Below, piece by piece: positions 3,581 to 12,133 of a DNA stretch of 41,652 nucleotides. The DNA is from Nitrospira sp. CG24A (GTDB lineage: Bacteria; Nitrospirota; Nitrospiria; Nitrospirales; Nitrospiraceae), in the NCBI GenBank assembly GCA_002869925.2, contig NEWT02000037.1, positions 60,822 to 102,473 of the forward strand. The letters run 5' to 3'. A model generated the notes under the pieces. It saw only the letters and a program-made list of their open reading frames with translations. It made no database searches and was not told the DNA's origin. Position 1 is the first letter of the stretch, and each line of letters begins with the position of its first letter. Both the position numbers and the translations under genes were made by a program.

Positions 3581-4948
3581 ATGATCGATCGCACGAGCCT
3601 TGAACGCTACATCACAGACAGCCGCCTCCGGTTTGAAGACCTGCTGGGCCAGATGGTGGAAATCCCTTCGATCAGCATGGATCCGGCCAGAGCCCCCGAC
3701 CTCCGGCGCATGGCGGAATTTTCGCGGCAGCTCCTCACAGACTTGGGAGCCGACGTTCGAATTGTAGAAACCGGTGGCTATCCGATCGTGTCAGGCGGAT
3801 GGATGACCGGAGTCCAACATCCGACGGTCACCATCTACAATCATATGGATGTACAGCCGGCGCAGGAGCCGGAATGGAAGCAGGAGCCTTTTGCATTCAA
3901 GAACGAGAACGGGTTGTACAAAGGCCGTGGCGCGACGGACGACAAGGGCCCGGCGCTGTCGGCCTTGTTCGGCGCACGGTATGCCATCGAGCAGGGAGTG
4001 CCGATCAATGTTCGATTTCTCTGGGAGCTGGAAGAAGAAATCGGCAGTCCGAACTTTTCGGCTGGGCTCAAGAACCGAACAGCTATTCCAAGACCGGACT
4101 CAGTTGTCGTGTCGGACACGATCTGGCTCGCAAAAGGGAAGCCAGCCATGCCCTATGGTCTGCGTGGTCTGCTTGGTGCGCGACTGACGCTACGCACGGG
4201 AACGAAAGACGCTCATTCTGGCGTGACCGGCGGCGCAGCGCGAAACCCGCTCGCGGAACTGATGGACGTGGCGCATGCCTGCGTCGATGCCAAGAGCGGC
4301 AAGGTCAAGATTCCCGGATTCTATCAGGATGTGGTTGAGCCGACCAAAGCGGAGATCAAGAGCTTTCTCGCGTCCGGTTTCCAGGTCAAGAGCTTCAAGC
4401 AGGCCTATGGATTTCAGACGCTGCGCACGAACGATCCCGCCGAGATCATGCGCCGGATTTGGGCTGCGCCGACGTTTGAGGTGCATGGGTTGACCGGCGG
4501 GTATCACGGCCCAGGGGTGAAGACGGTTGTCCCAGGCCATGGCGAACTCAAAGTCAGTATGCGATTGGTGCCGAATCAAACTCCGGAAAAGGCCTTTGCG
4601 TTGCTCAAGAAACATGTCGCCAAGCTGAATCCGCAGGTAAAAGTCGAGCGGGAAGGGATGCTTCATCCGTTCAAAGGATTGTTCGAGGGGCCCTATGTCG
4701 AGGCGGTAAAGCGAGCGGCGAAGGCGGGATTTGGGAAAGAGCCGGCCTTCATCCGCGAGGGCGGATCGATCGGCGCAGTGGTCACCATGCAAAAAGCCTG
4801 GAAGGTGCCGATCCTGTTTATGGGGCTGAGCTTGCCGGAACATGGCTACCATGCGCCCAACGAATACTTCGATTGGGGCCAAGCTTCAGGCGGAATGAAG
4901 GCGTTTGCGCATTATTTTGCGGAACTTGCCAGGATGGGAAAGAGGTGA
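3581..4948 (+). CDS. M20-family metallopeptidase (dipeptidase)
   Basis: The 455-residue protein is a cytoplasmic M20 (ArgE/DapE/carnosinase-like) di-zinc peptidase. The metal-binding and catalytic motifs are all visible. They are NHMDVQP near residue 87, GRGATDDKGP near 117 (bridging Asp), the catalytic pair ELEEEIGS near 150, DTIW near 180, and the C-terminal His in PEHGYHAPNE near 428. The dimerisation 'lid' domain (HSGVTGGAARNPL to RLVPNQTPE) lies between them. It probably hydrolyses dipeptides or N-acyl amino acids. The start is well supported: gcgaggag precedes the ATG with good spacing, directly after a dispersed repeat. Confidence 0.9.
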   Translation: MIDRTSLERYITDSRLRFEDLLGQMVEIPSISMDPARAPDLRRMAEFSRQLLTDLGADVRIVETGGYPIVSGGWMTGVQHPTVTIYNHMDVQPAQEPEWKQEPFAFKNENGLYKGRGATDDKGPALSALFGARYAIEQGVPINVRFLWELEEEIGSPNFSAGLKNRTAIPRPDSVVVSDTIWLAKGKPAMPYGLRGLLGARLTLRTGTKDAHSGVTGGAARNPLAELMDVAHACVDAKSGKVKIPGFYQDVVEPTKAEIKSFLASGFQVKSFKQAYGFQTLRTNDPAEIMRRIWAAPTFEVHGLTGGYHGPGVKTVVPGHGELKVSMRLVPNQTPEKAFALLKKHVAKLNPQVKVEREGMLHPFKGLFEGPYVEAVKRAAKAGFGKEPAFIREGGSIGAVVTMQKAWKVPILFMGLSLPEHGYHAPNEYFDWGQASGGMKAFAHYFAELARMGKR

Positions 4949-5380
4949 GGGATGAAGCCTGATGATCTTCTGTGCTCGCGCAACGCGCGGTCGCGGACTC
5001 CCCTCGTTGGACGCGCGCAGTGGAAGATCATTCAGCCCCCATCCCCGAAGAGATAACAAGCAAGCTTGGAGAGATCAATTTAGTCGATCGACGGTGCTCG
5101 CCTGGGCTAATGGCACGTCACGGCAAATCGATTGCGAAGTAATCGGAGGTAGGGCGGGTGAGAAAACGCACGCAGTGGAAGATCAATCAGCCCTCGTCTC
5201 TGAAGATTTTATAAGTGTCGCTCATGGAACTGATTTGGCAGGGCACCCTCTGCATGGCTCTGGTTTGAGCCCGGTAGGTATCGGGAACTTGTCTGGCGGG
5301 GTCACGAAACCCTCTGCATCTGACCTCTAGCTGCCGTGTGACCACTGGCGCACGGTCGTGCTTGGCTCTGTAGGTGGCCG
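4949..5380. repeat. Non-coding gap holding a dispersed GC module and decayed copies
   Basis: Positions 4972-5022 repeat the module seen near 1680-1730 (tgctcgcgcaacgcgcgg, then cccctcgttggacgcgcgcag). A second, degenerate copy of its flank follows (cgcagtggaagatcattcag at 5017, cgcagtggaagatcaatcag at 5172). I see no convincing gene in the remaining DNA. Confidence 0.55.
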
Positions 5381-5761
5381 CTACAAGCGGTGGGCGCCGT
5401 CAAGTTTCCCAAGATTCCGATCGAAGGTGCCCAGCGGTAGATGCCCGGCCTTGCGGGCGATTTCCAGAACGAGACAATCGGAGAAGCCCAACGAGGGACG
5501 AGCGCGGAACTGTGTCAGCGCCAATGCGACGACATCGGCATCCTGCAGCGTGAAGTCCTTGTGATGCAACATGAGTGCGACCGCGTTGGCGATCTGCGCG
5601 GGAGAGCGCTGGTACACCGCATCGAGCACCCATAGGGTTTCCGCCAGCACGAGGGTCGAGACCCACGCCCCCTTGGCCACATACGTCTCCGCGGCAATGG
5701 CCTGGCGCGCATCGTCACGCACCAGCAGCCGCACCAATACATTGGTATCAATGGCGTGCAT
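5381..5761 (-). CDS. VapC-type PIN-domain toxin ribonuclease
   Basis: The 126-residue protein has the PIN acidic residues: D5 (HAIDTNVLVR), E41 (LAETLWVL), D95 (FSDCLVLEIA) and D114 (TFDRNLGKL). PIN toxins are Mg2+-dependent RNases, typically cutting tRNA or rRNA when free of antitoxin. The start overlaps the end of the antitoxin gene by 14 bp, the usual translational coupling of type II toxin-antitoxin modules. All catalytic positions are present and there is no frameshift, so the toxin looks intact. The target RNA is unknown. Confidence 0.88.
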   Translation of the reverse strand: MHAIDTNVLVRLLVRDDARQAIAAETYVAKGAWVSTLVLAETLWVLDAVYQRSPAQIANAVALMLHHKDFTLQDADVVALALTQFRARPSLGFSDCLVLEIARKAGHLPLGTFDRNLGKLDGAHRL

Positions 5762-6011
5762 ATTTCTGACGGATGTGTTTTCTGATGCCGTCCTTCACGC
5801 TGGTCGAGGCTTGTCGCTTGGGGGTGCCATCGGGAAACAGCGCGTCATGCACATCTGCCAGGGTGTGCTGTCCGACTTTTCGCACAATGATCTCTTCGTT
5901 CTTCTCGTCCCATTCGAGGACCGATCCGGGTCCGACCCCGAGTTTCCTGCGAATCTCGGAAGGGACGGAAATCTGGCCCTGCGCTGTGAGTCTAGAATGT
6001 GCAAGTGGCAT
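5748..6011 (-). CDS. AbrB/MazE-fold antitoxin, partner of PIN toxin
   Basis: The 87-residue protein begins with a SpoVT/AbrB DNA-binding fold: LTAQGQISVPSEIRRKLGVGPGS is its typical swapped-hairpin pattern, followed by VLEWDEKNEEIIVRK. The C-terminal tail (SVKDGIRKHIRQKYARH) is basic and probably wraps the toxin. It neutralises the downstream PIN RNase and likely represses its own promoter through the palindrome just upstream of its start. Confidence 0.85.
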   Translation of the reverse strand: MPLAHSRLTAQGQISVPSEIRRKLGVGPGSVLEWDEKNEEIIVRKVGQHTLADVHDALFPDGTPKRQASTSVKDGIRKHIRQKYARH

Positions 6012-6046: not shown

Positions 6047-6303
6047 TGAAACCATAGGGGGCCGACGGTGCAGGAGGTGATGCAGTTTGATCAATCGGTT
6101 ATCCCACGCAATATTAGGATGACACGCTGTAGAAAGCACATCATCACGGCTTGATATTAAGTTTTCAGCGAAGCCGAACTGGAATGACAATCCGACCCCT
6201 TGTTGTTACATAGACAGAATCCATAACTCTTCCGTGCTGAAAAACGCTTCCGATGGTCATGAGTTTCTGAGTCCACACTCATTTTACGACTGCAATCTAA
6301 GAC

Positions 6304-6846
6304 TCAGTGCGGTTCTTGTCCTCTGGACCAGATAAAGCCCTGTGTGTATATGCTCAGGGATGCGTCCGGTTCTGTTTTTTCTGTTACCGCGAACTCCATG
6401 ATCGTTGGTATCTTGTACTGACCCTCTTTAGGCAACCACAGATTGCGAACAGCTACAGGCACACTGTTATTCGCGGTAGTTGAAAAAGAAGCGACGTTTT
6501 CAGAGCCTTTTATTCTTACCTTTCCACTGATCCGCCCTTTGTCCGAGGCAAACAGTAGCAGCAGATAATCAGTAATACCCGCTGGAACATTCTTCATTTC
6601 CACCTCCATCCAGATTTCTGTTTTGACCTTCAGTGCCTGGAAAATGAGGTCCGCCTTATCGCTAATTTGCGAAGTATTGGCTTGAAGTTCTTTGATTTGT
6701 GTTTTTAGCTCGTTTTGAGCCTTGTCGGATTCGCGTTTATTTTCTGCTTCTTCAAGCTTTCCGTAGTGGTAGGAACCGTAGGCTCCAAATGCGCTCAACA
6801 CAACGCCAAGGAGCAGCACAATTTGACTGACGGTTTGTGATGTCAT
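6304..6846 (-). CDS. Membrane-anchored coiled-coil protein, unknown function
   Basis: The 180-residue protein has an N-terminal membrane helix (about residues 8-27, QIVLLLGVVLSAFGAYGSY). A charged coiled coil follows (about 30-70, KLEEAENKRESDKAQNELK). A beta-rich C-terminal domain with no recognised motif ends the protein. It is probably single-pass with the globular part outside the membrane. The gene is lower in G+C than its neighbours and lies beside the toxin-antitoxin pair and the nuclease-helicase, which it diverges from. This suggests an acquired gene, possibly a defence partner, but nothing proves that. Confidence 0.6.
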   Translation of the reverse strand: MTSQTVSQIVLLLGVVLSAFGAYGSYHYGKLEEAENKRESDKAQNELKTQIKELQANTSQISDKADLIFQALKVKTEIWMEVEMKNVPAGITDYLLLLFASDKGRISGKVRIKGSENVASFSTTANNSVPVAVRNLWLPKEGQYKIPTIMEFAVTEKTEPDASLSIYTQGFIWSRGQEPH

Positions 6847-6892
6847 TTTTGGTTGTGAAGTATAACTTCAGAAGATTTATGACAGCGAAGGC

Positions 6893-6945
6893 GCGCATGA
6901 TGGCGCAGTATGGCGCGGAGTCCAGAGACCGTCAAGGCGAAGGAA
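6893..6945 (-). repeat. Copy of the sel1 gene leader and start region
   Basis: This stretch matches 11396-11445, the leader and first codons of the Sel1 gene at 10829-11401 (shared gcagtatggcgcggag and cgtcaaggcga). On the minus strand it even keeps an ATG (6899-6897), with MRAFAV compared with MRVLVI. The match then stops before the membrane coiled-coil gene. It is a remnant of a duplicated aat/sel1 junction. Confidence 0.65.
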
Positions 6946-7043
6946 ACTCCAACGATGGTTACAAACTTTCCCAAAGCGGTTGACGTGAGTGTTTGGTTAT
7001 AATGCCGCTATTCGCAGGGATACTCTGCGCCGAGAGGAAATCG

Positions 7044-9809
7044 ATGCCCGCCAAGCACGTCAAAGCGAGACACTGGATCGCGACAGGCATCTTTGATGCG
7101 CTCACCTCCTTCCACGAGTTCGAGCAACGCATCAATGGCATTGCGGAGGAGAAAGACCGTGGCGATATCTTTGAAATCTTCGTGGAAGGTTTTCTCGCCA
7201 CCCAACCCATTATGCAGTGCGTCACCGCCTGGGTCGTCGGCGATATTCCCCTCACGCTACGGCAACAATACAATCTTCCTAGCGATGCAAAGGGAATCGA
7301 CGGCATGTATGAAAGTCGCGTCGGAACGCATGTCGCCTATCAAGTCAAATACCGCCAGAAGGGCTATCTCACTTATACCGAAGTCGCGCCGTTTCTCGGC
7401 ATCACAGAACGCTTCACTGAGCGCGTTATCTTCACGAATGCGAGCGAACTCGCTGACGATGCCCTCAATCGTGGCGGGATGCGGCTGGTTCGCGGTGATG
7501 ATTTTCGTGCGCTCGAATCAGATGATCTTGCGCGAATCGAAGCATGGTTGAAAGCGAAGCCGATTCCCCGTTCTCCCCATACGCCAAAGCCCTACCAATC
7601 TGCCGCGCTGACCGAGATCAAGATGGCGCTCAACGCACATGGTCGCGCCACTGTCGTCATGGCGTGTGGGACAGGCAAGACCCTTGTCTCTTTGTGGGCA
7701 ACACAAGATGCACAACCGAAAACTGTCCTCGTCCTGCTGCCGTCCCTGACGTTGCTCCAACAGACGCTGGGCGAGTGGAGCAAGCATCACACCTTTACTC
7801 CGGGGTTTCGCTATCTCTGTGTCTGTTCGGATCAAACCGTAGGCTTACGGAATGATGAATTGGAACTCCGTACCTCTGATGTGGAGTTTCGTATTGATAC
7901 CAACCCCGAAGAAGTCACCCGCTTCCTTGCCCATCCCACAGAGGACGTGAAAGTCATTTTCTCGACCTATCAGTCATCGCCCGTCGTGGGTGCAGGGGCA
8001 ACAGGCTACACCTTTGATATGGGCATCTTCGATGAAGCCCACAAGACCACAGGTCGAGAGGGTAGCGCCTTTGGCTATGCGCTCTCCGACGACCACCTAC
8101 GCATCAGGAAGCGGCTGTTCTTCACCGCCACTCCCCGCCATTACGATATTCGCCATCGCGATCAAGAAGGCGAGTTTCGTGTGCAGTCGATGGACGATCC
8201 ACAGGTCTACGGTATACGCGCCCATACACTTTCGTTTGCGAGTGCCTCCAAGCGGGGCATCATCTGCCCGTACAAAGTCGTCATATCGATCATTGACAAA
8301 TACAAGGTCAGTGACTTTGCGCGGAAGCATGGCGTCACACCAATCGAGAGTGATCTTATGCGAGCGCGATGGGTAACACATCTCCTTGCCTTTCAGCAGG
8401 CTGTTGAGAATACAGGCGCGACAAAAGCCCTGACCTTCCATAGCCGCGTCAAGGCGGCACAAGAGTTTGCCAATGACACCACGCATGGCATCGGACGCTA
8501 TCTCAACGGCTACGACGTGCGCCATGTGCATGGCAAGCAACGAAGCTCTGAACGAAAAGCCCTTATCGAAGCATTTCGCCTTGCTGAAAAAGGGGTGCTC
8601 ACCAACGCACGCTGTCTGACCGAAGGTGTGGATGTGCCTGCGGTCGATATGGTGGCGTTTATCGATCCCAAACAGAGTCGTATCGATATTGCGCAAGCTA
8701 CGGGACGAGCGATGCGAAAGCCGCAAGGAGCCAGTACAAAGACGATAGGTTATGTCGTGGTGCCGTTGTTCGCCGCTGACTTTGAACAGAACAGCCTGGA
8801 CGAAGCAATTGAGTCCGAAGGGTTTGACCAAGTCGCGGATGTCCTCAATGCCTTACAGGAGCAAGATGAGGACTTGGTCGACATTATTCGTGAACTGCGG
8901 GAGCAAAGAGGCGCTGGCAAACCATTTGACCTCAGAAGATTTCGCGAGAAGGTGGATGTCATCGGTCCTGCGGTTAACCTGGAGCAACTCAAAATCAGTA
9001 TCGGCGTTGCCATAGCGGATCGCATTGGAAGCAGTTGGGATGAGTGGTATGGCGTGCTCAAAGCATATAAGCAGCGAGAAGGGCACTGCCGAGTTCCTGA
9101 CCTCCATCGCGAGCAAAACTATCGGTTAGGAAGATGGGTTGCCAATCAGCGCAAAAAAGAAGAAACCATGTCGCCTGAGCGTCTACAGCGGCTAGACGCG
9201 CTGGGGTTTGAGTGGGACATTCTCACTGCCCAGTGGGAGGAGGGGTTCCGCGCACTCCAATCCTTCTATCAGCGGGAGGGACACTGTCGCGTACCAAAAA
9301 CACATTTCGAGCACGGCTATCGGTTAAGGAACTGGGTCCGCGTTCAACGCGTAAACAAGGATGCCCTGTCGCCAGAGCGTCGTCAGCGGTTGGATGCACT
9401 GGGCTTTGTGTGGGATGCACATGCTTCGCAGTGGGAGGAGGGGTTCCGCGCACTCCAATCCTTCTATCAGCGGGAAGGACACTGTCGCGTGCCTGGCCTC
9501 CATCGCGAGTGGGACTATCGGTTAAGAGAGTGGGTTCACCGTCAACGCGTCAGCAAAGACATCATGTCCCCTGAGTGTCGTCAGCGGCTCGATACGCTCG
9601 GGTTTGAGTGGGACGCTCTCGCAGCCCAGTGGGAGAAGGGGTTCGGTGCACTCCAGTCCTTTCATCAGCGGGAAGGGCACTGTCGCGTCCCCAAAAGATA
9701 TCGCGAACAGAACTATGGGTTAGGAGAGTGGGTTGCCAAGCAACGCCAGGATAAAGACCGCGTGTGGTCAGAACGTCGTCAGCTGGGCTTTGTATGGAAG
9801 GTTCGCTGA
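7044..9809 (+). CDS. Restriction-type nuclease / SF2 helicase with four helicase-associated repeats
   Basis: I place the start at ATG 7044, eight bases after GAGAGG; a TTG at 6993 in frame is less likely and overlaps a TATAAT. The 921 residues divide as follows. Residues 1-170 are an Mrr-like PD-(D/E)xK nuclease (E44, GID86, then Q100-V-K102). A DEAH helicase follows with Walker A CGTGKT (208-213), DEAH (330-333) and TATP (361-364). The second RecA lobe has a motif VI-like QATGRAMRKP. After a linker come four 66-residue helicase-associated (HA) units, each with QREGHCRVP. It probably tracks along and cuts foreign DNA. It stands alone, without a methylase or specificity subunit. The last HA unit is shortened. 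Confidence 0.85.
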   Translation: MPAKHVKARHWIATGIFDALTSFHEFEQRINGIAEEKDRGDIFEIFVEGFLATQPIMQCVTAWVVGDIPLTLRQQYNLPSDAKGIDGMYESRVGTHVAYQVKYRQKGYLTYTEVAPFLGITERFTERVIFTNASELADDALNRGGMRLVRGDDFRALESDDLARIEAWLKAKPIPRSPHTPKPYQSAALTEIKMALNAHGRATVVMACGTGKTLVSLWATQDAQPKTVLVLLPSLTLLQQTLGEWSKHHTFTPGFRYLCVCSDQTVGLRNDELELRTSDVEFRIDTNPEEVTRFLAHPTEDVKVIFSTYQSSPVVGAGATGYTFDMGIFDEAHKTTGREGSAFGYALSDDHLRIRKRLFFTATPRHYDIRHRDQEGEFRVQSMDDPQVYGIRAHTLSFASASKRGIICPYKVVISIIDKYKVSDFARKHGVTPIESDLMRARWVTHLLAFQQAVENTGATKALTFHSRVKAAQEFANDTTHGIGRYLNGYDVRHVHGKQRSSERKALIEAFRLAEKGVLTNARCLTEGVDVPAVDMVAFIDPKQSRIDIAQATGRAMRKPQGASTKTIGYVVVPLFAADFEQNSLDEAIESEGFDQVADVLNALQEQDEDLVDIIRELREQRGAGKPFDLRRFREKVDVIGPAVNLEQLKISIGVAIADRIGSSWDEWYGVLKAYKQREGHCRVPDLHREQNYRLGRWVANQRKKEETMSPERLQRLDALGFEWDILTAQWEEGFRALQSFYQREGHCRVPKTHFEHGYRLRNWVRVQRVNKDALSPERRQRLDALGFVWDAHASQWEEGFRALQSFYQREGHCRVPGLHREWDYRLREWVHRQRVSKDIMSPECRQRLDTLGFEWDALAAQWEKGFGALQSFHQREGHCRVPKRYREQNYGLGEWVAKQRQDKDRVWSERRQLGFVWKVR
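9036..9806 (+). repeat. Four tandem 198-bp units encoding helicase-associated domains
   Basis: Units start with a Trp codon at 9036, 9234, 9432 and 9630, an exact 198-bp period. Units 2 and 3 share a near-identical stretch of about 60 bp at their starts (from 9231 and 9429), so they duplicated recently. Unit 4 has lost four codons (residues RLDA) near its end. Confidence 0.85.
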
Positions 9810-9965
9810 GTGGCAGTGATGGTTTCGGTCGCAACCTGCATGGGCACTAACCAGGATGACTGCGACCTTGCTGTAGCGTTCGCGTGAGTCGTGCCTTGCC
9901 CCACCAGTATAGTGCCCTGCTCGTGGAGGCACTATTATTACTAAGTTCTCAGCCCACGACTTAGA
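9810..9965. terminator. Gap after helicase gene with 8-bp hairpin
   Basis: A perfect stem ATAGTGCC (9909-9916) / GGCACTAT (9928-9935) with an 11-base loop lies about 100 bp after the helicase stop and is followed by an A/T-rich stretch. It may terminate the helicase transcript or mark the edge of the inserted segment. Confidence 0.45.
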
Positions 9966-10072
9966 TCATGGAATGTCGAACTGCCCGCGCCCGCGTCGAT
10001 CAGAGAGGGCGAGTGCCTCGGTCAAATGATCGAGAAAGTCGTGGCGAGGAATTTCTTCGGCGCCGAGCGTTT
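9966..10072 (-). pseudogene. 3' remnant of a second aat gene
   Basis: Read on the minus strand, this encodes LGAEEIPRHDFLDHL and ends GQFDIP-stop. That is the same C-terminus as the intact aat at 11489-12133 ([15 protein letters not shown]...WQFDIP). The rest of the gene is missing on its 5' side, where the Sel1 gene at 10173 follows instead. The stop codon and about 15 bp beyond it are also conserved. An opposite-strand open frame here is only its shadow. The remnant marks one side of a duplicated aat/sel1 junction. Confidence 0.8.
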
Positions 10073-11401: not shown

Positions 11402-11488
11402 GGTGACGCAGTATGGCGCGGAGGGTAGAGAGCGTCAAGGCGAGCAGTCACACACGATGATGACCGAGCGACGAACTCACGACTTCTA

Positions 11489-12133
11489 TCATGGAATGTC
11501 GAACTGCCACGGTCCGCGTCGCTCTGGGAGTGTTAGCGCTGCATTGAGGTGATCAAGAAATCCCCGGCGTGAAATCTCCTCTGCCCCGAGCGCCATCACA
11601 TGGGGTGAGGATTGCTGGCAGTCCATTAGGCGGAATCCCCAGACCTGTAGCTGACGTACAAGAGATACCAAACCAACTTTCGAGGCGTCAGGGACACGGG
11701 TGAACATCGATTCTGCGAAGAAGGCGCTGCCCAGCGCCACACCATAGAGTCCGCCCACCAACTTTCCATCCTGCCAGGTTTCAACGGAATGGGCATAGCC
11801 TTGTTCGTGGAGTGTTGTGTAGGCATCGAGCATCTCTGCCGTGATCCAGGTGCCGCCGTCTGGATATTGCGGCCTGGGTCCTGCGCATTGCTGCATCACG
11901 TCGCGAAAACACCGGTCGAGTGTGACGCTGAACAGGCCAGGACGAAGACTTCTCTTCAGGCTTCGAGAGATATGAAGCTTGTCGGGAAAGAGGACGGTTC
12001 TAGGATCGGGGGACCACCACAGGATGGGCTGGTCGTCGTCGTACCAGGGAAAGATGCCGTGTCGGTAGGCTTCGAGCAATCGCTCGGGTCTCAGGTCGCC
12101 CCCGACGGCGAGCAGGCCTTCAGGGGTGGACAC
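11489..12133 (-). CDS. aat: Leucyl/phenylalanyl-tRNA-protein transferase
   Basis: The enzyme adds Leu or Phe from charged tRNA to proteins with N-terminal Lys or Arg, marking them for ClpS/ClpAP. Family signatures are clear: [35 protein letters not shown], and [18 protein letters not shown]. The GTG at 12133 cuts off conserved N-terminal residues. The frame stays open upstream and encodes [19 protein letters not shown] before the GTG, typical of Aat, but contains no ATG, GTG or TTG. The true start is probably ATA (12193-12191), which overlaps the TAA of the upstream gene as ATAA, or else the nearby ATC or CTG. It is probably co-transcribed with that gene. Confidence 0.9.

Follow-up and report, generated by a model that had tools for sequence, protein, structure and literature searches.

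A single-chain nuclease–helicase of Nitrospira with a diversifying HA repeat array: a candidate methylase-free restriction enzyme

The nuclease–helicase gene and its neighbors

The window analyzed here is a stretch of 41,652 nucleotides from Nitrospira sp. CG24A. At positions 7044–9809 of its forward strand lies an intact gene, devoid of internal stops, for a protein of 921 amino acids, the start of which (MPAKH or MPTKH) is kept in close relatives. The protein combines an Mrr-type nuclease, an SF2 helicase, and four HA (PF03457) repeats in one chain, an architecture that a sequence-only reading had described and that the open reading frame, the Pfam matches, an alignment to the restriction enzyme LlaBIII, and structure prediction bear out. 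Pfam identifies ResIII, Helicase_C, and four HA stretches (E 4.7e-69), with PF03457 scoring 229 bits against a curated cut-off of 28.4. No Mrr family exceeds the Pfam threshold in the window protein. The nuclease is assigned because residues 23–616 align in a single stretch to LlaBIII, and family relatives do match Mrr_cat_2.

The Mrr-family nuclease domain (approximately residues 23–170; window 7110–7553, forward strand), delineated by the LlaBIII alignment and by family conservation, contains E44, D86, Q100, and K102. It is followed by the SF2 helicase-like ATPase (approximately residues 176–620; 7569–8903), which is recognized through ResIII and Helicase_C as well as matches to LlaBIII and LlaGI, and which carries K212 and a DEAH motif at 330–333. 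The numbering of E44, K102, and K212 in the earlier reading is correct, and that of D86, Q100, and the DEAH motif is likewise confirmed. A linker of predicted helices (approximately residues 621–661; 8904–9026), coupler-like by its position, connects the motor to the array, and the structural alignment to 4xqk (LlaBIII) reaches residue 715. The HA repeats comprise residues 663–725 (9030–9218), 729–791 (9228–9416), 795–857 (9426–9614), and 861–919 (9624–9800, four residues shorter), all on the forward strand, and at the DNA level they form a tandem array with a period of 198 and 74% matches. Their residues at the six most variable positions, described below, are DLRANK, KTNRVV, GLEHRV, and KREAKQ, respectively.

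On the reverse strand lie a toxin–antitoxin pair (5381–6011), consisting of a PIN toxin (5381–5761) and an AbrB/MazE-type antitoxin (5748–6011), and a gene for a 180-residue membrane protein (6304–6846) in which a hydrophobic segment at the start precedes a charged, coiled-coil-like stretch. These neighbors are as originally described, and they are bystanders. The flanks align collinearly with those of the sister genome G028 at 84–91% identity, and there window positions 6094–9949 are replaced by about 1.4 kb (L200, 2817–4211) with a different, 311-residue gene standing where the window has the membrane protein and the nuclease–helicase. The toxin–antitoxin pair is retained at about 95% in this helicase-less locus, which places it outside the module, and no relative of the membrane protein was found in 60 related genomes or in any fetched locus; both candidates were therefore rejected as partners. 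Of the two arrangements initially proposed, a two-gene system with the membrane protein is not supported, for want of such relatives elsewhere, and a single-gene restriction system is supported by the Type ISP chassis, the conserved nuclease residues, and the lack of a recurring partner.

Clustering of the neighbors at about 80 loci of relatives revealed no recurrent partner; the clusters contained merely fragments of the gene itself, where it is split, at position +1, along with scattered common families. No methyltransferase family is among those recurring in 146 immediate neighbors. Matches to PADLOC were not enriched: in a comparison based on simple ORF picking and a single control set from the same loci, genes within two positions matched 49 families (146 proteins), and genes at least five positions away matched 93 (138 proteins). 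The expectation that homologues would reside in defense islands thus fails for immediate neighbors. The opposite prediction, a housekeeping setting that would argue against a defense role, holds by half, as the neighbors are mostly common cellular genes, yet they are never the same ones and the presence of the gene is sporadic. For the window protein itself, the PADLOC matches are confined to the N-terminal portion of long Type IIG/Type I fusion models, and there is no full-length match, together with partners, to a known PADLOC system.

Several short intergenic stretches in the window (4947–5056, 5148–5193, 6889–6940, 9955–10067, and 11476–11521) match multiple places in related Nitrospira loci. 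Some flank the inserted genes, and they are possibly dispersed repeat elements.

The Type ISP-like chassis and its distribution

The sequence match to LlaBIII (4xqk) spans residues 23–619 (E 1.6e-49). In this alignment, E44, D86, and Q100-V-K102 fall on Mrr-type residues, with D86 superimposing on LlaBIII D78; the mutant D78A of the related LlaGI is nuclease-dead (PMC4872093). An AlphaFold2 model of the window protein (mean pLDDT 85) yields 4xqk as the top hit among 995 chains, with a Z score of 37.1 over 571 residues, followed by LlaGI at 32.8, and all remaining helicases score 25.4 or lower. By predicted fold, its closest relatives are by far restriction enzymes. Among the features that define Type ISP membership, the Mrr nuclease and an SF2 ATPase of the LlaBIII kind are present. 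A fused gamma-class N6-adenine methyltransferase has no match in the window protein, and the C-terminal TRD is absent, its place being occupied by the PF03457 repeats.

A scan for family members detected 454 encoding relatives and yielded 79 loci, distributed over Nitrospirota, Pseudomonadota, Verrucomicrobiota, Planctomycetota, Elusimicrobia, and further groups. Nitrospira metagenome assemblies are the nearest matches within the genome collection. The survey of this architecture that had been suggested shows the same layout to be widespread: 65 full-length nuclease–helicase–HA members were examined, with 1 to 13 HA repeats each. G40, G84, D86, Q100, K102, K212, and the DEAH motif are invariant in all 65, and E44 is kept in 64, so that a lack of conservation of the nuclease residues, which would have spoken against the original proposal, is not seen. 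A tree built from the shared core separates HA forms from long Type ISP proteins (1570–1722 amino acids), and on it the clade of the window protein mixes Nitrospira with Comamonadaceae and Alphaproteobacteria, implying horizontal transfer. Of 32 genomes in the genus, 6 (counting that of the window) contain a full homologue, at differing loci; across the phylum, 9 of 295 genomes have any HA domain, and none of 14 control genomes does. The gene is accessory and patchily present in Nitrospira.

The shared chassis ends in a methyltransferase–TRD module (in Type ISP enzymes), in HA arrays, or in INT_rpt-like arrays, which fits a C-terminus that behaves as an interchangeable reader. In two relatives, L098:1905–5240 and L027:4467–7781 (both forward strand), a tandem array resembling INT_rpt (PF14882) replaces the HA repeats, with six repeats of about 63–67 residues in the former and about seven in the latter; the Pfam match has an E-value of 4e-5 in L098, with a score slightly under the cut-off, and of 1e-11 in L027. 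The L098 protein, from Verrucomicrobia, is nested among HA forms on the core tree. The INT_rpt-like array is a candidate for a second repeat-type reader.

More distantly, 741 plasmid records contain a match to the window protein. DEAD/DEAH helicases from Streptomyces, Rhodococcus, and Pseudomonas plasmids and from viral contigs share a related helicase, with HA repeats in those examined. In contrast to the window protein, many of them lack the N-terminal nuclease, and their match begins at about residue 175–180. An eight-HA relative on the Rhodococcus qingshengii plasmid RQCS_2 is located near a NACHT-domain gene and a gene for a 1329-residue protein that matches AAA weakly; together they may form a defense cluster. 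Viral contigs queried with the window protein as the single query gave no match; nuclease-less helicase–HA proteins are encoded on such contigs (L116, L117, L118, L127, L128, L136–L138, and others), those of L116–L118 adjoining a shared neighbor that by eye looks phage-structural. A nuclease supplied in trans to these helicases was considered and rejected, no neighbor being common across them. Elsewhere, at L079:12008–15439, two successive HA arrays occupy adjoining open frames, which could represent a single very long array interrupted by a frameshift or two genes in tandem.

Six diversifying positions in the HA repeat

Alignment of 443 HA repeats to a 63-position model, with 70 loci used for variability, delineates a constant frame in which W2, L31, W34, R39, L55, and W62 are nearly invariant and Q38 is strongly conserved. 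When repeats within one array are compared pairwise, at an identity of 70% or more, positions 37, 24, 40, 23, 33, and 36 differ in 56–67% of comparisons; the other positions mostly differ in roughly 0–47%, with positions 41 and 46 next highest at 55%. Arrays from outside Nitrospira, taken alone, yield the same top six.

A codon analysis was restricted to within-array repeat pairs with DNA identity of at least 72%. In 23 non-Nitrospira arrays, pN/pS at the six positions is 1.28 compared to 0.37 elsewhere in the repeat (array bootstrap 1.09–1.51), and none of 5000 random six-position sets matches it, figures that address the non-independence of within-array pairs in part. Five Nitrospira arrays gave 1.31 compared to 0.39 (0.95–1.75; 20 of 5000 random sets as high). 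Correction for multiple hits raises the Nitrospira ratio to about 1.6–1.9, while the nuclease–helicase core of the same genes evolves at a dN/dS of 0.09–0.18. Synonymous differences at the six positions are ordinary (0.42 compared to 0.39), which indicates that they are not a mutation hotspot. Six fixed positions of the HA repeat are thus under diversifying selection, which is new here. Such selection indicates changing partners; that the partner is DNA does not follow from it.

The six positions cluster on the predicted structure. Positions 33, 36, 37, and 40 occupy one face of helix 2, spanning about 100 degrees at 100 degrees per residue, with L31, W34, V35, and Q38 on the opposite face, and the loop preceding this helix holds positions 23 and 24. 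The helix is predicted with high confidence over positions 33–40, and in repeat 2 of the window protein the corresponding residues 763, 766, 767, and 770 are on predicted helix 761–770. Acidic residues make up 6% at the six positions compared to 18% at other variable positions, and N, Q, S, T, H, G, and A together 56% compared to 35%. Among 436 repeats, 412 distinct six-residue combinations occur. A code could not be derived from column covariation, an approach rejected because mutual information is weak (about 0.17 for positions 23 and 36 and about 0.15 for 36 and 40).

The only solved HA domain that we found, 2kta, is titled "putative helicase"; we know of no HA–DNA complex. Searches for fold relatives of the array gave no meaningful match (best VIA-align Z 4.5, Foldseek E 2.4), and homeodomains were not among the chains listed. 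The HA stretch xWVxxQRx nevertheless runs in the same register as the homeodomain recognition helix, with a non-significant match to MAT-alpha2 (E 0.74), and HA positions 33, 36, 37, and 40 would sit on the homeodomain base-contact positions 47, 50, 51, and 54. This likeness may serve as a lead; common descent is not supported by the structure searches.

A model for HA-directed restriction

Based on these data, the window protein is probably (at roughly 0.6) a Type ISP-like restriction nuclease that stands alone and lacks a methylase, with the HA array serving as a modular, diversifying DNA-recognition element. In this model, the array would take over the TRD's task of finding the DNA site, with every repeat binding the target by means of the exposed side of helix 2 and the loop before it. 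Binding would start ATP-driven translocation by the SF2 motor, and the Mrr nuclease would cut upon collision or stalling of translocating enzymes, in the manner of LlaBIII and LlaGI, presumably in defense against phages or plasmids. Specificity would evolve through gain, loss, and diversification of HA repeats instead of TRD swaps. The earlier suggestion that DNA form or damage may be what HA modules read is thereby made more specific, the six diversifying positions favoring the reading of changing DNA sequences. More tentatively, the HA repeats may constitute a new modular DNA-reading code, in which each repeat reads a few bases via residues 23, 24, 33, 36, 37, and 40, and in which duplication, deletion, and diversification of repeats on the methylase-free nuclease–motor chassis generate new specificities. 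Counting against the model are the lack of PADLOC enrichment nearby and the interrupted copies in two close relatives; in addition, the sparing of self-DNA is unexplained because neither a methylase nor an immunity partner is present. The host may perhaps be spared if its genome contains few of the sites defined by long arrays, of which two may be required.

The main rival, although an unlikely one, would solve this self-DNA problem. It holds that the protein is a Type IV-like enzyme, in which the HA array recognizes modified DNA for the motor–nuclease to shred, and host DNA without the modification is spared. SauUSI (PMC7913695) sets a precedent for a motor and a nuclease in one protein that lacks a methylase, and PADLOC weakly matches a methyl-directed enzyme of Type IV. 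However, that match covers only the shared helicase, and a diversifying repeat surface present in 1–13 copies suits changing sequences better than one modified base.

Rather unlikely is a sensor, in which the array would bind an invader protein or RNA and the nuclease–motor would act on nearby DNA or on the host chromosome in an abortive response, diversification reflecting an arms race with a viral protein. Diversifying surface positions are equally expected of a protein interface. However, the array stands in the place of the DNA-reading TRD on a DNA motor, acidic residues are scarce at its variable positions, which are polar, and the repeat that fills the same place in L098 and L027 is named after integrases.

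A DNA repair or recombination factor with a nuclease, acting on DNA structure or damage, is improbable. Distant similarity of the helicase to RadD, XPB, and UvrB and the mostly housekeeping neighbors at hand are in keeping with such a role; sporadic presence even within the genus and phylum, spread across phyla, replacement of the gene in the sister genome, restriction enzymes as by far the closest relatives, and a rapidly diversifying array are not. Finally, a selfish or decaying mobile gene devoid of present function, to which interrupted copies in two relatives might point, is very improbable given the strongly purified core and the catalytic residues invariant in 65 members. The interruptions in these two copies, which belong to G004 and G015 and are among the closest homologues, are an in-frame TAG in the helicase region and a frameshift in the array of HA repeats, and they reflect either genuine decay or errors of metagenome assembly.

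If the HA array is indeed the target reader of a Type ISP-like restriction nuclease, it would define a restriction class with specificity set by countable repeats of about 66 residues with six variable residues each, and a repeat-to-base code would become directly testable. It would also assign a function to a large domain family annotated merely as "helicase associated"; no paper on HA-domain defense was found in an open-access library. Moreover, the small group of single-protein restriction enzymes that lack a methylase would gain a member, and the question would arise of how an enzyme of this type protects its own genome. Engineering of new restriction specificity has been described as an unaccomplished challenge in the LlaGI structure paper (PMC4872093), and a modular reader on a LlaGI-type motor would offer a natural route to it.

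By analogy only, the HA array resembles TAL effectors and homeodomains in displaying a few hypervariable surface residues on a constant frame. It differs from them in repeat length and fold, with no demonstrable homology and no known code for HA, and neither TAL effectors nor homeodomains were returned by the structure searches. The nuclease of SauUSI belongs to another family, phospholipase D-like. SauUSI, an ATP-dependent Type IV enzyme, is similarly a methylase-free single-protein nuclease with an SF2 motor and a recognition domain, but it reads methylated DNA via one TRD, whereas the window protein carries a repeat array (PMC7913695). Type ISP enzymes, which translocate by ATP hydrolysis and cleave upon collision (PMC4666363), are likewise single chains with an N-terminal Mrr nuclease bearing E-D-QxK and the same SF2 motor, the shared part having about 26–30% identity and a predicted fold similarity of Z 37. 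In contrast to the 1578-residue Type ISP enzyme, which continues into a methyltransferase and a TRD, the 921-residue window protein possesses neither, and thus no modification activity to mark self, and ends in four HA repeats.
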